Positions 18,364 through 27,293 of a DNA stretch of 39,006 bases are shown here, one piece after another (position 1 is the stretch's first letter; each line of letters begins with the position of its first letter). The notes below the pieces were generated by a model, which saw nothing but the letters and a program-made list of their open reading frames with translations, was not told where the DNA came from and searched no databases. The DNA comes from a virus. The DNA lies in the IMG/VR virus record IMGVR_UViG_3300021354_000223, positions 1 through 39,006 of that record, one strand, 5' to 3'. The position numbers and the translations under genes are program-made.

Positions 18364-18882
18364 TTACTCTTTAGCTTTAGGCTTCCAGCTATCACCGAAT
18401 ACTTCTTTCTTCCTACCCGCCTGTGTAGGCATACCCGCCCTATCTACTAATCGGTCTACTTCTTCATCTTCCATACCTAGACGGGACTGTATCTCTTCTT
18501 TACTGACACCATCATCTACTATGCCACGCACAATATTAGCCATAGATAAGATGCCGTGTGTTCCCCTAGCACGATTATGACGGATGGTACTCATCTGTCT
18601 ATGAATAGGGTCGATATCTACTGTAACTGTAGGAACCATCCCATTAAATCTTTCCATAAGTTTTTTCTCACCGCTTACTGTATAACGATGAAAACCATCA
18701 ACAATAGTATTATCAGGAAGTATGACAATAGGTTGTGTCCAGCCATCTTCAACAATAGATGTTACTAATAATTCCATCTCAGGAGGGGCTACTTTATTAG
18801 GATTGTAGTCATTAGGTTTTAATTCTTTTCTATTTTTCCATACTACAGAGCTAATAGGTTGTTTTTTAATATCTTGTGCCAT
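18364..18882 (-). CDS. ParB-like (sulfiredoxin-fold) protein, IbrB type
   Basis: A 172-residue protein with an N-terminal ParB/Srx-type domain: LKPNDYNPNKVAPPEMELLV, then DGWTQPIVILPDNTIVDGFHRY. The DGFHR motif takes the place of the ParB 'GERR' box. The C-terminal half has a helix-turn-helix-like part (IQSRLGMEDEEVDRLVDRAG). ATG 18882 is chosen because AGGAAG precedes it; an earlier ATG at 18900 has poorer spacing. It overlaps the PAPS-reductase-like gene by 17 bp. A ParB-like protein paired with such an enzyme is the IbrA/IbrB arrangement known from E. coli, where the pair affects expression of immunoglobulin-binding proteins; its biochemistry is not established. Confidence 0.8.
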   Translation of the reverse strand: MAQDIKKQPISSVVWKNRKELKPNDYNPNKVAPPEMELLVTSIVEDGWTQPIVILPDNTIVDGFHRYTVSGEKKLMERFNGMVPTVTVDIDPIHRQMSTIRHNRARGTHGILSMANIVRGIVDDGVSKEEIQSRLGMEDEEVDRLVDRAGMPTQAGRKKEVFGDSWKPKAKE

Positions 18883-20053
18883 AGTCCGCTTCCTCAACAT
18901 CTTCCATTGATATACCTACTTTTCCCCTAGCCAAACTAGCATTAGCATTGACTTGACCTTTTCTTCTCTCTTTTAAATCTCCACGATTAGCAATCATAGC
19001 TAAAAACTTCCAACTAAGACCAGTAATTAAATCTGCTTCAGTTTCATGCAGAGGTCTATTTGTCTTAGATTTATGCTGTGCTAATAGATTAACGATATTA
19101 TTAGCTACCAATCCTTTCAAGTCTTTAGGATATAACTCTAGCAAAGCGTATGTCCACTCTTTCCATGTCATGCCTTCAGGCAGAGTCATTTTGCCGAACC
19201 CATACAATTCTGTATTTGCATATCTGCCAGCCGTAGCCGCACCATGAACTCGGTTAATCATCTTATGCCATAACTGAGGCCATCCTTGTGCGTAAATCCA
19301 TAAGCCACCTAATGGTTCTTCGCCATACGGAGGACATACTCTCTGTGTGCTAGGTGCTACTCCCATCATACTCATGATGTCATAGGATTTGTTGTAGTCC
19401 CAACCGAATAATCTCGGGGCTGTCCATACATCAAAAGTAGTCCAATCATATATAGGACTGCAAGGATAGTTATGACCATTTCTAGGTGCAGATAACCAAT
19501 TTAATCTTGTACGCTGTGCAACACTTCTATATCGCCTAAGTGATTCATCTGCTCTGATGCCACGAACATCTGCTACTGTGCCGTACTCAGGTCCATACAC
19601 ATAATGAGCAATATCAGGAACGCTATCCCCCCATTTAAATTCTTTTAATTCTGTAATTACATCAGGATTATCAGGTAGCTCACGAACCCACAAGTCTTTT
19701 TTAGATGGGTCCCAACAATGCCAATATGGTTCTTTACGGCTACAAGCATTTCTGTGCCTGATAGGAATACATAACCATTTAAAGCATATTTCAGGGGATT
19801 GTCGTACTCTCTCTACATATTCAATGGTATCAGGATGGATTGCTTCTTCATCCCAAAAATACACATCAAGCGGCAGTTTGTTTTTTTTCCTAGCTACTTC
19901 TAATGCTAAATTAAGACAGACTGTAGAATCTTTGCCACCACTAAATGACACTACTACTTTATCAAAGTTATCAAATAAGTATTCAAAGCGTTTAATAGCG
20001 GCATCATAGACATTGACACCTTCAACTACTTCTTTTTTAAGGATTCTGCCCAT
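18866..20053 (-). CDS. PAPS-reductase-like PP-loop ATPase, IbrA/DUF3440 type
   Basis: A 395-residue protein. SFSGGKDST (36-44) is the PP-loop ATP pyrophosphatase motif shared with PAPS reductases and DndC. Later: YPCSPIYDWTTFDVWTAPRL, and a Cys-containing segment RVCPPYGEEPLGGLWIYAQG, then PEGMTWKEWTYALLELYP, which resemble the C-terminal IbrA/DUF3440 region. Free Cys residues occur in EICFKWLCIPIRHRNAC. The enzyme likely activates a substrate by adenylation; sulfur transfer to DNA, RNA or a small molecule is possible but unproven. It is flanked by overlapping genes on both sides (17 bp each), so it is made together with the Bug-like and IbrB-like proteins. Confidence 0.85.
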   Translation of the reverse strand: MGRILKKEVVEGVNVYDAAIKRFEYLFDNFDKVVVSFSGGKDSTVCLNLALEVARKKNKLPLDVYFWDEEAIHPDTIEYVERVRQSPEICFKWLCIPIRHRNACSRKEPYWHCWDPSKKDLWVRELPDNPDVITELKEFKWGDSVPDIAHYVYGPEYGTVADVRGIRADESLRRYRSVAQRTRLNWLSAPRNGHNYPCSPIYDWTTFDVWTAPRLFGWDYNKSYDIMSMMGVAPSTQRVCPPYGEEPLGGLWIYAQGWPQLWHKMINRVHGAATAGRYANTELYGFGKMTLPEGMTWKEWTYALLELYPKDLKGLVANNIVNLLAQHKSKTNRPLHETEADLITGLSWKFLAMIANRGDLKERRKGQVNANASLARGKVGISMEDVEEADYGTRY

Positions 20054-21782: not shown

Positions 21783-21805
21783 ACTGTAGTTCTAATATAT
21801 GTCAA
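21778..21805 (-). promoter_or_regulatory. Sigma-70 type promoter of the ParB/Bug/Ibr cassette
   Basis: On the minus strand -35 TTGACA (21805-21800), a 16-bp spacer and -10 TATGAT (21783-21778). The predicted start near 21771 gives a leader of about 22 bases before the winged-helix gene. The -35 overlaps the stop codon of the DUF932 gene. Confidence 0.75.
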
Positions 21806-22782
21806 GCAGTTAGAAGAATTTTTGTTGCATTATTTTTCATCCTGTCGCCATTACCAAACCAAGCCGAGTTTAATCTAGCATCTGCACTATGAGTAGGCTT
21901 GTGATGGTCGTAATACTCTGTTACTGCATTGAGCATTCCCCATTTTGTATGCCCTACCAATTCCGACCCCATAGCCCCCCCATCAAATAAACTCATAATT
22001 TTTTGATATGCCCGATTATTTGCAATGTCATAATCATCACGCTTAATTTGGCTCATAGGTGCTATCAAGTTTTTAATAAATTGGTCTGCCTGTGCTTGAT
22101 TCATCTGTTGCTGTTGCAGATATTTACCCATATCAATAAAAGCCCCGAATGATTCGACTGCATTACCTAATTTGGCTTTTACAGCTCCGTGGTCAAATTT
22201 CTTGATATGACTAAATGAAACTGTGTGGCTGTTTTCATTGTGTGCCATGCTCAATGTATTATTACAAACCACCCGAACAGTAGTAAACCTTGCCGTTGTA
22301 GCCAGCGACCTATCGCATGATGTAGATAGTAGCAAGAAGCCACCAATACCATCTTCCTTGACGATTTCTCCGTACTTGCCTGTCTGTGCTAGAGCCCACA
22401 TCCGCTTGCCACCCATAAGCGTTCCAGCCGTATGAATCTTGAAGCCATTTTCCTCTACTAAATCTCTGAAGAACTCTAATACTTCTTTTGGTTGTACGGC
22501 TTTATATCTATCTGATACTGCTGATAGTGGTTCTTTGTTATCGCTACGATAAAGCACATTTCTGCCATCAAACGGATAAGTCTCAATGCCATATCCTGAA
22601 CCTGAAAGTGCTTGATATTGAATTGGTGCTGATTCAATAGTCCAGTCAAGACCCGCTTCTTTCTGCCATTTTTCAATGGTTGCATTTTCTTGGAGTTTTT
22701 GTCCGCTATCGTGCCACGGAGTATCACCAATAAAAGCCATCTCTACAAAGCCATCTTTTCTAATTGTCAGTTCTGCCGCCAT
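21802..22782 (-). CDS. DUF932 (phage/plasmid-like TIGR03299) protein
   Basis: A 326-residue protein with the family's N-terminal 'TPWH..G' motif (FIGDTPWHDSGQKL), the NVLYRSDN..PLS.VSDRYK.VQP segment, and VRVVCNNTLSMA in the middle. ATG 22782 has AAAGGAA upstream and leads directly into the family sequence (MAAELT...); an in-frame start at 22857 would add residues that overlap the 26-residue gene and is rejected. Function is unknown across the family, which is frequent in phages and plasmids. Confidence 0.87.
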   Translation of the reverse strand: MAAELTIRKDGFVEMAFIGDTPWHDSGQKLQENATIEKWQKEAGLDWTIESAPIQYQALSGSGYGIETYPFDGRNVLYRSDNKEPLSAVSDRYKAVQPKEVLEFFRDLVEENGFKIHTAGTLMGGKRMWALAQTGKYGEIVKEDGIGGFLLLSTSCDRSLATTARFTTVRVVCNNTLSMAHNENSHTVSFSHIKKFDHGAVKAKLGNAVESFGAFIDMGKYLQQQQMNQAQADQFIKNLIAPMSQIKRDDYDIANNRAYQKIMSLFDGGAMGSELVGHTKWGMLNAVTEYYDHHKPTHSADARLNSAWFGNGDRMKNNATKILLTA

Positions 22783-22796
22783 GATAATTCCTTTCG

Positions 22797-22877
22797 TTAA
22801 ATTGATAAACCAAACATACAACCTAAAATAATTCCTAAAACTATTACACCAATCCAATCAATAACTTGGGTTTGCAT
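22797..22877 (-). CDS. 26-residue single-span membrane peptide
   Basis: The frame from ATG 22877 encodes MQTQVIDWIGVIVLGIILGC and ends MFGLSI, a single hydrophobic helix of about 18 residues. A perfect GGAGGT lies five to six bases upstream, inside the 3' end of the GGCT gene, and the stop is 14 bp before the DUF932 start. The near-consensus ribosome-binding site makes translation likely. Small phage membrane peptides of this kind can be holin-like, superinfection exclusion or transporter-binding factors; nothing here decides between them. Confidence 0.65.
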   Translation of the reverse strand: MQTQVIDWIGVIVLGIILGCMFGLSI

Positions 22878-23307
22878 AAGCCACCTCCATGTAGTAAGCG
22901 TGTTTTGTAAACTCTAGGGCATCCCACAATTTTGCTAATCGTAGACCGCAATGCTCATAGCCTTCTTTTATTGCGTTAAAGTAATTATCAGTAGGTGATG
23001 CATATCCGCCTGAGTTCATGTAATACACAATGGCTTCTACTTCTTCATCCCCTACTTTGATGTTTACCGATTCTCTGCCATACATACTGGGATATCCCTC
23101 ATAGGCATCCAGCCGCATCAGACAGTCTCCAGTAATATCCCAAAGACCTACTGGTACTGAGCCCTTCTTGCTAAATTCGATGTCAGCTACACCTCTGAAT
23201 ACAAGCCTGTATTTCTCTAATACTCCTGTGCCGACAAACTTGGCTTCAGGGCATCGTCTAGCCATCTGCTCATGATTTAAATTACTTCCGTATGCCGCAT
23301 ATAACAT
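22858..23307 (-). CDS. Gamma-glutamylcyclotransferase-like (GGCT/AIG2) protein
   Basis: A 149-residue protein. YGSNL at 6-10 is the substrate-binding loop of GGCT proteins, and the catalytic Glu fits E70 in LDAYEGYP. VGLWDI and AIVYYM are the matching strands of the barrel. Such enzymes release 5-oxoproline from gamma-glutamyl amines or peptides. It follows an amidoligase gene in the same operon; a link between phage amidoligases and GGCT-type hydrolases is known from comparative genomics. Translation is supported by AAGGAAA upstream. Confidence 0.88.
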   Translation of the reverse strand: MLYAAYGSNLNHEQMARRCPEAKFVGTGVLEKYRLVFRGVADIEFSKKGSVPVGLWDITGDCLMRLDAYEGYPSMYGRESVNIKVGDEEVEAIVYYMNSGGYASPTDNYFNAIKEGYEHCGLRLAKLWDALEFTKHAYYMEVAYANPSY

Positions 23308-23308
23308 C

Positions 23309-23485
23309 TTATTTTCCTTCCGTGTCGTTAAATGATTTCATCCAAGCCATCAAAATTTCTTTGGCTTCTTTTTTTGTCAGGTCAAATTCTGTTTCTAGAT
23401 ATTGCCCCGCACCGAACATATTTATCTTTCCTGAATCCCGCAAGATAACTAAATATTCGTAATATATATTTGTCATATCATTCAT
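23309..23485 (-). CDS. Small protein of unknown function, 58 residues
   Basis: ATG 23485 is chosen for its AAAGGAAAC leader at good spacing; an in-frame ATG at 23512 lies within the preceding gene end. The translation MNDMTNIYYEYLVILRDSGK continues with INMFGAGQYLETEFDLTKKEA and a helical end. The 'r.sG.inmfGa..yL...f.l.k.eA...l..Wm.s' pattern occurs in small phage proteins of unknown role. Confidence 0.7.
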   Translation of the reverse strand: MNDMTNIYYEYLVILRDSGKINMFGAGQYLETEFDLTKKEAKEILMAWMKSFNDTEGK

Positions 23486-23501: not shown

Positions 23502-23678
23502 TTAAATAACAATGATGCGTTGTGATGAAACTTCTAAAATTCTGAATTTTGCATTTGGATACTTTTTGTATTTTTCTTGTTGCCATTCGCAAATATCGTA
23601 TGCAATTCCATATCTGTCAGTAGTTATAAAAGTAACCCATTCATTCATCATTGTTTCTCTTTGTATTTCGTATTCCAT
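23502..23678 (-). CDS. Small protein of unknown function, 58 residues
   Basis: The frame from ATG 23678 to 23502 encodes MEYEIQRETMMNEWVTFITT, then DRYGIAYDICEWQQEKYKKY, with a final strand segment. The leader ACGAAAGGGAAT at 23686-23694 is a strong ribosome-binding site, shared with other early genes of this phage. Length is just below usual gene-calling limits. It overlaps nothing and fills the gap between its neighbours. Confidence 0.7.
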   Translation of the reverse strand: MEYEIQRETMMNEWVTFITTDRYGIAYDICEWQQEKYKKYPNAKFRILEVSSQRIIVI

Positions 23679-23693
23679 GATTATTCCCTTTCG

Positions 23694-23939
23694 TTAGTTC
23701 TTCAAAAATACTGTTACAAATCCACTAGCTATCAAATCTTCTAAAAATTGCTGGTCGTTGTACCAATCAATCTCTGAGCCGTTATAGCATTTGCATCTTA
23801 TGGCTACATCTTCCTTAAATTGCTGTCTGCTAATTGAAGGTGCTCGGCTAGTCTTACGCATCTCATCTACAAACTCGCTAGGGTCGGAGGCTGTTACAAA
23901 ACCTCCTCCATCAAATAAATACATATAGGTTGATTTCAT
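23694..23939 (-). CDS. Protein of unknown function, 81 residues
   Basis: Begins MKSTYMYLFDGGGFVTASDP and contains SISRQQFKEDVAIRCKCYNG. ATG 23939 follows the amidoligase stop by two bases, with AAGGAG about eight bases upstream. No known motif is seen; the fold is probably mixed alpha/beta. It is part of the amidoligase operon. Confidence 0.7.
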   Translation of the reverse strand: MKSTYMYLFDGGGFVTASDPSEFVDEMRKTSRAPSISRQQFKEDVAIRCKCYNGSEIDWYNDQQFLEDLIASGFVTVFLKN

Positions 23940-23941
23940 AA

Positions 23942-24751
23942 TTACACTCCTTGTAATTGGGTTGCTCTTGCTTTGTATGATTGGGCTAGTGCTGGAGTAA
24001 TTCTTGCTCTACGAACCATGCCAGCCAACATTGTGTCTAGTGCTTCTTTAGCTGTGAACTGCTCTTTAAATGATTTAACTGCAACATGGTCTTGGGAATC
24101 AGCAACCATTCCGAATGTCAAGCGGATGTAGTTTTCTACTTTGTCTGCATCTGTTGTGCCGCTATGATGGCGAAACTCTACTGAACCCATACGAAAGAAT
24201 GATTGCAAGTTCAATTTGAGGTAGCGTGTGCTGAATACTTGACCTAGTTGGCGGACTGTTTTTGCTTTCTCAATATCACCGAACAAGACCGATTGTGATT
24301 CAACTGAAGTATTAGTCATGCTTCCGTAGAGTGAACCTACATAACGATTAGCTTGATTGCGACGGCTTGCTGGTTGAATTGAATCCATGCCAGCTTCAAA
24401 TTTTACAAAACGCTTGAACAAGTTGCGAAACTCTTTGATGCCCCAGTCTGTAACATTGTGATGAATGTGAAAGCCTGTTGATTGGTTTACTTCTGCACCG
24501 AGGGCTGTAATGATTTGGCACACTTTACGAATTGTTGCGATGCCTTCTTCGCCTTCAAGGATTGGGCTTACAACTTCAAAACCATCACGACCTTGAATTG
24601 AGCCGTCATGTTTGATTTGAAACTTGGTGTAATCGTTGCCGCTATATCCAGCACGAATAGCTGGAATGCCAGCGTTGTTAAGTGCATCAACAACTGTCTG
24701 ATTTGGAACATTGAAGCACTCTAGTTCTACTCCGAATTTGCTGTTAATCAT
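23942..24751 (-). CDS. Amidoligase (COOH-NH2 ligase family)
   Basis: A 269-residue protein that matches the amidoligase_2 family: FGVELECFN near the start, KHDGSI, FEVVSPIL, GFHIHHNVTDW and FFRMGSVEFRHHSGT in that order, the acidic and His/Arg residues of a glutamine-synthetase-like active site. Such enzymes join an amine to a carboxylate using ATP. ATG 24751 with its ACGAAAGGGT leader is preferred; a possible start at 24790 would lie in a hairpin-bearing leader. It is the first gene of an operon with three small proteins, GGCT, a membrane peptide and DUF932. Predicted activity: synthesis of a gamma-glutamyl-type amide on a small molecule, peptide or wall component. Confidence 0.85.
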   Translation of the reverse strand: MINSKFGVELECFNVPNQTVVDALNNAGIPAIRAGYSGNDYTKFQIKHDGSIQGRDGFEVVSPILEGEEGIATIRKVCQIITALGAEVNQSTGFHIHHNVTDWGIKEFRNLFKRFVKFEAGMDSIQPASRRNQANRYVGSLYGSMTNTSVESQSVLFGDIEKAKTVRQLGQVFSTRYLKLNLQSFFRMGSVEFRHHSGTTDADKVENYIRLTFGMVADSQDHVAVKSFKEQFTAKEALDTMLAGMVRRARITPALAQSYKARATQLQGV

Positions 24752-24796
24752 TTTGTACCCTTTCGTTGTTGGGGCTTTCGTATCGCCCATGTAGAT

Positions 24797-24824: not shown

Positions 24825-24899
24825 TATCTATGACAAATATATTTTTTCCCTTATAAATCAATGACTTAGAGGGCTGAGATACAGCTAGGAAGCCTATTC

Positions 24900-24916
24900 T
24901 GCCTATTTTTTAGGCA
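24900..24916. other. Short perfect hairpin in the non-coding region
   Basis: TGCCTA / TAGGCA with a five-base T (plus) or A (minus) loop. No T run follows it on the minus strand, so it is not a standard terminator. It lies between the three structured units and the amidoligase promoter; the rest of 24825-24943 is AT-rich without a gene. Confidence 0.5.
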
Positions 24917-24943
24917 AATATAAGGGTATGTCCTAATATAAAG

Positions 24944-25012
24944 GGTGGGTCTGTAAGCCACGAAAGGGTTTGGCAGTTTTTTGAGTGATGCCGCACTCGC
25001 CTACAGACCCAT
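24944..25012 (-). ncRNA. Structured non-coding unit C with sequence complementary to early ribosome-binding sites
   Basis: The minus strand forms a perfect 10-bp outer stem (TGGGTCTGTA / TACAGACCCA) enclosing a small hairpin (GAGTG / CACTC) and a stretch without clear pairing that contains CCCTTTCGTGG (24968-24958). That stretch is complementary to the ACGAAAGG ribosome-binding sites of four leftward early genes. No open frame with a start and ribosome-binding site is present. Transcription from the minus strand as a 3' UTR of the recombination operon is assumed, not shown. Confidence 0.5.
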
Positions 25013-25016
25013 TGAA

Positions 25017-25122
25017 GGTGGGCTACTCACTAATCAGGGAATCATCCTGAACTTTATATGTAACTGCTACTTACCCGAAGGAATAAAGGCTCTTTCAATT
25101 ACATACAAGTGTTTTCACCCAT
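25017..25122 (-). ncRNA. Structured non-coding unit A
   Basis: Minus-strand unit starting ATGGGTGAAAACACT and ending AGTGAGTAGCCCACC. Pairings visible by eye: TGGGT with GCCCA, CACT with AGTG, TATGTAA with TTACATA, and a hairpin TCAGG / CCTGA. It shares its start and end consensus (ATGGG...GTAGCCCACC) with unit B and the ATGGG/CCCACC borders with unit C; four-base linkers separate the units. Confidence 0.5.
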
Positions 25123-25126
25123 AGAT

Positions 25127-25225
25127 GGTGGGCTACTGATTGCCTTTACTTTTGTTATATGAATGCTTTGTGAGCAGATGTAACTTATTTACGCTACACC
25201 ATAACAAAATGCAACTTTCGCCCAT
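25127..25225 (-). ncRNA. Structured non-coding unit B
   Basis: Minus-strand unit starting ATGGGCGAAAGTTGC and ending GTAGCCCACC, lying directly behind the stop of the SSB-like gene. Pairings: TGGGC / GCCCA, GTTGC / GCAAT, a perfect 9-bp stem TTTTGTTAT / ATAACAAAA, and inside it two hairpins (TGTAGC / GTTACA with one G-U, and TGCT / AGCA), giving a three-way junction. The inner sequence differs from unit A although the borders are the same. Confidence 0.5.
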
Positions 25226-25231
25226 AACTAT

Positions 25232-25525
25232 TTAAAAAGGAATGTCGTCGTCCATTACTGCAACAGTCTTATTTGCATAATCTTTTGCAGACCTTGAAGT
25301 ATAGTCTGATGCTCCAGCCTCTTTGAAATTACTTTTTTCTTTTGGTTCTGCTAGAGTAATCCAACCATCCCAACCTACAGGCATCGAATCAATCTTAATT
25401 GCAAGACCGCCAGTTTGGGTTTCCATACATACACCCATTTTTAGCCATTTTGTCTTTTCGACACCATCAGGAGTTTTGTATGTCCCATTTTTTGCTATTA
25501 CATCATATTTAATCGCCATAGCCAT
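25232..25525 (-). CDS. Small SSB-like protein with DDDIPF tail
   Basis: A 97-residue protein ending DDDIPF, identical to the last six residues of E. coli SSB, the docking peptide for replication and repair proteins. The body (KYDVIAKNGTYKTPDGVEKT, then KWLKMGVCMETQTGGLAIKI) is strand-rich with aromatic residues, compatible with a small OB-type domain, but I cannot assign it to the standard SSB family. It is coupled to the exonuclease gene by a 17-bp overlap. A second ATG at 25519 is possible. It probably binds phage single strands made by the exonuclease and ERF protein. Confidence 0.72.
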   Translation of the reverse strand: MAMAIKYDVIAKNGTYKTPDGVEKTKWLKMGVCMETQTGGLAIKIDSMPVGWDGWITLAEPKEKSNFKEAGASDYTSRSAKDYANKTVAVMDDDIPF

Positions 25526-26940: not shown

Positions 26941-27246
26941 TTAGTCGTATAAATTGCCTGAACACAAATCTTCTTCAGCGTGTTTTGTAGCGATGTTTTC
27001 CATGTATTCATAAGCCATGCAATACAATTTTCTACCTAGTGCCGCATAGTCAATGTCAGGCATCTGCAAAATAGTTTCCACAGATTCAACATCTGATTTT
27101 TTAGCCTCACAAATTCCTTCTGAAAAATTTGAGTATGTGCTTGGGTTGTAATCTTCTTTCATCAACTCAGCAACTCTATTTTCTATTAAATCGCCATCAT
27201 CATTATCTTCAGGTTCGTAATACCTGTCGTGCATGGACATTCCCAT
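26941..27246 (-). CDS. Acidic protein of unknown function, 101 residues
   Basis: The first gene of the leftward early operon, starting MGMSMHDRYYEPEDNDDGDL. It has a very acidic N-terminus and a helical C-terminus (YAALGRKLYCMAYEYMENIA). The leader CACGAAAGGAATC gives a good ribosome-binding site. Being first after the strongest early promoter, it may act on the host, but no motif supports a function. Confidence 0.7.
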   Translation of the reverse strand: MGMSMHDRYYEPEDNDDGDLIENRVAELMKEDYNPSTYSNFSEGICEAKKSDVESVETILQMPDIDYAALGRKLYCMAYEYMENIATKHAEEDLCSGNLYD

Positions 27247-27293
27247 TTTGATTCCTTTCGTGAATCGGCTTGCGTTATTGCCAGCCTGTATGT

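Follow-up and report, generated by a model that had tools for sequence, protein, structure and literature searches.

Background

C4, an antisense RNA of phages P1 and P7, is about 77 nucleotides long. Its closing stem, P1, encloses the inner stems P2 and P3, and an anti-RBS single strand lies between P3 and P1' (PMC5320573). C4 masks a ribosome-binding site (RBS) (PMC5320573). According to this source, which cites Hartmann 1995, RNase P cuts C4 from a longer transcript, before the GG at P1. Cuckoo (alpha-r14) sRNAs, represented by NfeR1, act in trans, and silence many mRNAs at the RBS through an exposed anti-Shine-Dalgarno seed (PMC10746234). Other phage-encoded RNAs, namely OOP, aQ, sas, 24B_1 and VpdS, are covered by a review (PMC12197685). 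All of them control phage genes through base pairing; for OOP, aQ and sas the target is in each case a single opposite-strand mRNA, and VpdS works with Hfq. In the passages searched, the review describes none of them with a seed that is matched to an RBS motif common to several operons.

The RNA reported here, unit C, is one of three in an array within the window, by which we mean the whole 39-kb virus record that was analysed, that of a lake phage. The closest known kind of RNA is C4 (RF01695). In both, P1 encloses one or more inner hairpins and an anti-RBS single strand next to P1', although P3, whose loop a' gives C4 its target specificity, is absent in short unit C members. Both also pair with the RBS of a phage mRNA, which for unit C is inferred from complementarity and co-evolution. 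Unlike C4, unit C has a pseudoknot in the P2 loop and lies in arrays with other modules; its seed differs, and each phage has several targets for it, with alleles that co-evolved. The RF01695 covariance model matches 0/23 unit C records at E<=10, and scores 68.8 bits against P1 c4 itself; conversely, our model R1 does not match P1 c4. With NfeR1, unit C shares the anti-Shine-Dalgarno seed as its proposed mode of action. However, NfeR1 is chromosomal and alphaproteobacterial, has three hairpins with CCUCCUCCC and no pseudoknot, and acts on host genes, which have no private extended site.

Location and borders of the array

The array is found on the minus strand, between the gene for an SSB-like protein and an amidoligase gene with a likely start at 24751. 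The operon ahead of it encodes a YqaJ exonuclease, an ERF annealing protein and the SSB-like protein. The gap measures 441 bp to the longest open reading frame and about 480 bp to the likely real amidoligase start. This region folds more stably than shuffled sequences (z -3.55). Genes past the array encode an amidoligase (23942-24751), a gamma-glutamylcyclotransferase-like protein (22858-23307), a DUF932 protein (21802-22857) and a PAPS-reductase/DUF3440 protein (18866-20053), possibly a small-molecule or peptide-ligase set. Between unit C and the amidoligase gene is a conserved near-palindrome, TTTGCCTAAAAAATAGGCAAA (24895-24917), which also occurs in contigs L038 and L040 and is like an operator or terminator. 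Judged by terminase, the nearest cultured relative is Methylophilaceae phage P19250A, with about 70% identity in that protein; it has the SSB-like gene without unit C.

Units A, B and C follow each other in tandem (Table 1). AT stands before each unit and ACC after it, with the outline GGG...CCC-ACC directly after a T, and the linkers are ATCT and TTCA if AT is counted with the unit. The unit ends are GGGC...GCCC in A, GGGT...GCCC in B and GGGTCTGTAGGC...GCTTACAGACCC in C. Coordinates and border letters thus agree with the initial annotation, which had reported three successive minus-strand units with common borders. The outer stems are also as claimed there, that of C having 13 pairs, including a T-A pair and one G-U. 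The inner stems had been swapped, as the perfect 9-bp TTTTGTTAT/ATAACAAAA assigned to B belongs to A, and the long inner stem of B is instead TGTATGTAATTG/CAGTTACATATA. A new promoter had been placed behind the array; the layout makes it plausible, but a consensus scan near the array found none above chance.

No Rfam family (4227 searched) matches the array region, even at E<=10. A tRNA or tmRNA identity was rejected for the array, as was a tRNA-like structure, there being no T-loop or anticodon anatomy.

Table 1. Positions of the array, the parts of unit C and the predicted targets in the window
Feature	Position	Strand	Remarks
SSB-like protein, DDDIPF tail, final recombination-operon gene	25232..25525	-	
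Unit A, conserved structured RNA	25130..25223	-	Homologues L045, L119, L223, L025, L033; 3 pairs with double changes
Unit B, conserved structured RNA	25020..25120	-	Homologues L014, L025, L027/L125, L033, L097/L098; 5 pairs with double compensatory changes
Unit C, putative antisense RNA (P1, P2, pseudoknot, seed)	24947..25010	-	Covariation; covariance model R1 match 24944-25011
P1 5' strand of unit C, GGGTCTGTAGGC	24999..25010	-	Pairs with 24947-24958
P1 3' strand of unit C, GCTTACAGACCC	24947..24958	-	Pairs with 24999-25010
P2 hairpin of unit C, GAGTG-CGGCAT-CACTC	24983..24998	-	P2 covaries
Pseudoknot strand 1, GGCA, in P2 loop	24989..24992	-	Pairs with TGCC 24972-24975
Pseudoknot strand 2, TGCC	24972..24975	-	Pairs with GGCA in P2 loop
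Seed (anti-Shine-Dalgarno), CCCTTTCGT	24960..24968	-	Complement of four phage RBSs; co-varies with target
ACC after P1, possible RNase P RCC motif	24944..24946	-	Present in 34/35 unit C sequences
Target ACGAAAGG, RBS of amidoligase gene, first downstream gene	24759..24766	-	10-nt complement including window-specific third G; duplex -16.7 kcal/mol
Target, RBS of first recombination-operon gene (26941-27246)	27254..27261	-	Seed complement
Target, RBS of 58-aa gene 23502-23678	23687..23694	-	Seed complement
Target, RBS of DUF932 gene	22790..22797	-	Seed complement
Near-target CACGGAAGG, RBS of gamma-glutamylcyclotransferase-like gene 22858-23307	23316..23324	-	One G-U pair; duplex -14.8 kcal/mol

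Structure and distribution of unit C

By comparative sequence evidence, unit C is a conserved structured RNA. It comprises the closing stem P1, a hairpin with a loop-to-tail pseudoknot, and then the single-stranded seed CCCUUUCGU. Among homologues, P1 has 10-15 bp, and P2 has 4-6 bp and a loop of about 6-7 nt. P2 is followed by an A-rich stretch with CT and a few further bases at its end, then frequently by a P3 hairpin, and lastly by the seed abutting P1'. P3 is missing in several short members, including that of the window.

In alignment A5 (34 sequences), 96.5% of cells are paired, compared with 70.1% for shuffled alignments and 43-48% for slid partners. Double changes are found in 14/18 pairs, and the covariation score is 0.709 vs 0.188 shuffled (0/500). 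P1 positions 4-10 show 4-6 pair types each. The four-base pseudoknot, which was left unpaired in the model used for A5, has 93.8% of cells paired vs 76.9%, and scores 0.609 vs 0.268 shuffled (0/500). An alignment-free swap of loops and tails gives 3.69 for own partners and 2.85 ± 0.12 for swapped ones (maximum 3.27 of 2000). The pseudoknot pairs found among homologues are GGCA/TGCC, TACA/TGTA, TGTA/TACA, GATA/TATC, GGAA/TTCC and GAAA/TTTC. P1 in A5 contains 15 G-U and 0 A-C combinations, which identifies the minus strand of the window as that of the functional RNA.

Relatives were first found by searching with flanking proteins, and have between one and three units at the same spot. With unit C DNA patterns, the set grew to about 35 distinct sequences in viral contigs. 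Covariance model R1, built from 14 unit C sequences with the window left out of training, matches other non-training members with E-values down to 4e-8, and matches the window at 0.04-0.08; these E-values are rough. Model R2, which includes such members, matches further loci that had been obtained by protein alone, such as L236 and L239. The contigs are related and partly fragments, so counts do not represent independent events. Several homologues were found with patterns containing the seed, which biases the frequencies of seed classes and not the agreement of seed and target.

The RNA family is widespread and previously uncatalogued, and most of its members come from viral contigs of lakes and other freshwater-type sources. 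In relatives, Rfam gives no match to unit C itself apart from chance-level overlaps, and no description was found in the searchable literature, which was limited to open-licence papers. Similar DNA was not found in cultured phages. A search for prophage copies in bacterial genomes gave 10 pattern matches, and the two betaproteobacterial ones that were checked are not real units. Many other unit C pattern matches were rejected as opposite-strand RBSs, for example in actinophages L141, L143 and L147, and in L155 and L186. Most initial border-pattern matches arose by chance, the exceptions being the real arrays in L013, L014, L025, L027, L033 and L034. HDV, twister, pistol and hammerhead identities were rejected for unit C, as their consensus motifs do not fit.

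Complementarity of seeds and ribosome-binding sites

The initial annotation overlooked the predicted function of unit C, whose seed is complementary to the phage's own RBSs. The window seed complements an extended Shine-Dalgarno sequence, ACGAAAGG(G), at four window genes, and every CGAAAGG in the window outside unit C directly precedes a gene start (four genes). The exposed seed is thus complementary to the Shine-Dalgarno sequences of several mRNAs, with four exact targets in the window and up to 6 same-strand targets in the locus of one relative. Predicted duplexes of unit C with the window targets have energies of -12.2 to -16.7 kcal/mol, compared with -8.7 to -10.4 for the betaproteobacterial 16S tail. 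Both host and tail are assumed in this comparison. The extra target bases, ACG before AAAGG, are unpaired with this tail.

Among phages with the CCTTTCGT seed (24 contigs), 89 of 90-91 ACGAAAGG sites are at ribosome-binding sites, a density of 3.55 per 10 kb. In 32 contigs that have the SSB-like gene without unit C, ACGAAAGG occurs at only 0.19 per 10 kb. The trinucleotide before AAAGG is ACG in 85/231 sites of same-seed contigs, and ACG is not among the common ones in the 32 controls.

Four allele classes of seed and target are found, namely CCUUUCGU/ACGAAAGG, CCUUUUCGU/ACGAAAAGG, CCUUUGCGU/ACGCAAAGG and CCUUUCAAG/CUUGAAAGG. Leaders follow seeds, with CCTTTTCGT accompanied by ACGAAAAGG, CCTTTGCGT by ACGCAAAGG and CCTTTCAAG by CTTGAAAGG. 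In a swap matrix, the matched RBSs number 89/4/0/0 for CCTTTCGT, 3/22/0/0 for CCTTTTCGT, 0/0/1/0 for CCTTTGCGT and 0/0/0/7 for CCTTTCAAG; the CCTTTGCGT class rests on one phage. Over 40 contigs the matrix is strongly diagonal: own seeds match 119 RBSs, vs 63.2 ± 8.7 when the seeds are permuted (20,000 permutations, of which the highest gave 96). The fourth class was encountered only after the hypothesis had been formed, and behaves as predicted. Kinship of the contigs aside, four alleles with matched targets require several joint changes.

Proposed mechanism and alternatives

We propose that unit C is an antisense RNA with which the phage masks several early ribosome-binding sites, and assign this reading a probability of roughly 0.8. 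The fold, the seed-target complementarity and the co-evolution in four allele classes are established, as far as comparison of genomes can establish them. Unit C is very probably a switch that turns those early genes down, but no data on transcripts, processing or repression support this step.

Unit C would derive from the 3' end of the transcript of the recombination operon; its transcription is inferred. P1 and the P2-loop pseudoknot would hold the single-stranded seed (CCUUUCGU in the window class) open beside P1. The seed could then pair with, and cover, the extended Shine-Dalgarno sequence ACGAAAGG at the heads of several early genes. Ribosome loading at a covered site is presumed to be blocked; repression is an inference, and another outcome, such as protection of the mRNA, is conceivable. 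Unit C might thereby damp its own operon by feedback, the next operon, and others that include opposite-strand ones, which amounts to action in trans. One target is the leading gene of its own operon, and the simplest role would therefore be a delayed feedback that turns early functions down.

Release of the RNA might depend on host RNase P. This enzyme recognizes a pyrimidine at -1, a G1:C72 pair, and A73 C74 C75 that pair with GGU of the P15 loop (PMC11143913; also PMC12710915). The corresponding signals, U/C-1, G1:C72 and A73C74C75, are present at the borders of unit C. Host RNase P is therefore inferred to cut the precursor before GGG, guided by G1:C72 and the 3' ACC. The shared borders, U or C before GGG...CCC-ACC, suggest excision in this way, an inference from border resemblance only. 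The count of ACC after P1 (34/35) was partly forced by the search patterns, but 9/10 protein-found loci also have it.

Perhaps unit C acts only in cis, as an attenuator. On read-through transcripts its seed would then fold onto the next gene's RBS, and its other matches would be by-products of a common RBS. A matched site is indeed present in the gene immediately downstream in 27/36 contigs, a count that also speaks for the antisense reading. In the other 9/36, which weigh against that reading, no exact complement is found there, and some of these have 1-2 extra A's or a G-U variant. However, recurrent targets comprise the first recombination-operon gene and the DUF932 gene as well as the first gene past unit C, and matched sites lie in distant upstream operons, 2-3 kb downstream and on the opposite strand. 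The recurrent opposite-strand target, a DUF1376 primosomal gene, argues for trans action. In addition, a promoter region of its own seems to precede the downstream gene, and contigs with the SSB-like gene that lack unit C also lack the motif. We consider an exclusively cis-acting role unlikely.

All three units might instead act independently in cis, as riboswitches or ribozymes by which their own transcript is regulated or cut, with seed pairing by unit C being secondary. Units A and B do contain long stretches that are unpaired and invariant, as well as a loop-E-like GAAA/AGUA border, and hammerhead ribozymes and one Pistol-like match are found nearby in relatives. Nevertheless, the window has no Rfam match, and conservation of unit C is centred on the seed and its presentation, which makes this possibility quite improbable.

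An explanation without RNA-RNA regulation is that ACGAAAGG is merely a favoured RBS of these phages or their hosts, and that convergence accounts for the likeness of the seed to the 16S anti-Shine-Dalgarno. In its 3' part, the seed is similar to the betaproteobacterial 16S tail; CACGAAAGG serves as a plain RBS in unrelated actinophages too, and P19250A has one such RBS without unit C. However, joint changes of seed and target spoil or overrun 16S pairing (CCTTTGCGT/ACGCAAAGG, CCTTTCAAG/CTTGAAAGG), relatives that lack unit C make no use of the motif, and the swap test contradicts the idea, so we regard it as very improbable.

It is scarcely credible that the shared sequence serves a phage regulator as a DNA operator, inverted within unit C, since, although DNA sites can be read in either orientation, seed matches lie 3-13 nt ahead of start codons in gene orientation almost without exception, and the fold around the seed is that of a covarying RNA, whose G-U pairs are on one strand.

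For the antisense reading, the function of the unit C family is predicted from natural co-evolution of seeds and targets. This suggests that a small phage co-ordinates several early operons post-transcriptionally by one RNA and not by a protein regulator. The natural alleles form a ready set of mutually distinct anti-Shine-Dalgarno/Shine-Dalgarno pairs, and the prediction is directly testable through the four alleles.

Units A and B

Units A and B have the common sequence GGGYGAAA...AGTAGCCC, in which, by inference, a P1 stem seems to carry a loop-E-type cap. No consistent complement to phage ribosome-binding sites was found for either unit.

The order of units is A-B-C in the window, C-B-A in L014 and L025, B-A-C in L033, A-C in L045, L119 and L223, and B-C in L027/L125. 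Lone units also occur, with B in L097 and C in L044 and L180. The initial annotation regarded the units as related RNA elements with shared borders and differing interiors. The differing interiors are evident, with modules single, paired or reordered in other phages, and compensatory changes, proposed there as a test, are found in homologues of all three units. The support is strong for C (34 sequences) and modest for A and B (5-6 sequences).

A broader and more tentative idea, which we consider possible without favouring it, is that the array is a modular set of phage RNAs that RNase P excises, with cassettes that are acquired, lost and rearranged. Unit C would then embody a private Shine-Dalgarno code: an extended Shine-Dalgarno sequence specific to the phage would tag an early regulon, the phage's own anti-Shine-Dalgarno RNA would switch this regulon off, and the code would drift jointly so as to keep those of related phages apart. 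Units A and B would be further effectors, perhaps aimed at the host.

A second anti-Shine-Dalgarno-like stretch, TTCCTTTCGTTCC, is found in unit A of L025 and L033. In L033 it matches one ACGAAAGG RBS, though unit C of this contig has the CCTTTTCGT seed.

Other RNAs near the array in relatives

A pseudoknot-like RNA is found just past the SSB-like gene in phages without unit C (L062, L066, L087, L095, L097, L099, L054, L060 and L063). It is conserved, with sequences such as GATAGG...CTTCACG...GACAGCC...CCTATC-A-GGCTGTC, and has no Rfam match.

The unit just upstream of unit C in L171 (5175-5264, minus strand) contains a Pistol ribozyme-like match of 30.4 bits (gathering threshold 34.5). This match may be partly spurious, as its 3' part extends into unit C.

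Type I hammerhead cores (CUGANGA, GAAAC, GUC/GUA), with helices II and III varied and compensated, are found in L048 (minus-strand reading, offset 13897), L036 (3765), L037 (3818 and 4074), L225 (2469), L229 (1870), L223, L230, L171 and L204. In Rfam, they give only sub-threshold RAGATH-1 matches. Several of the cores are located directly upstream of an RBS that is a unit C target.
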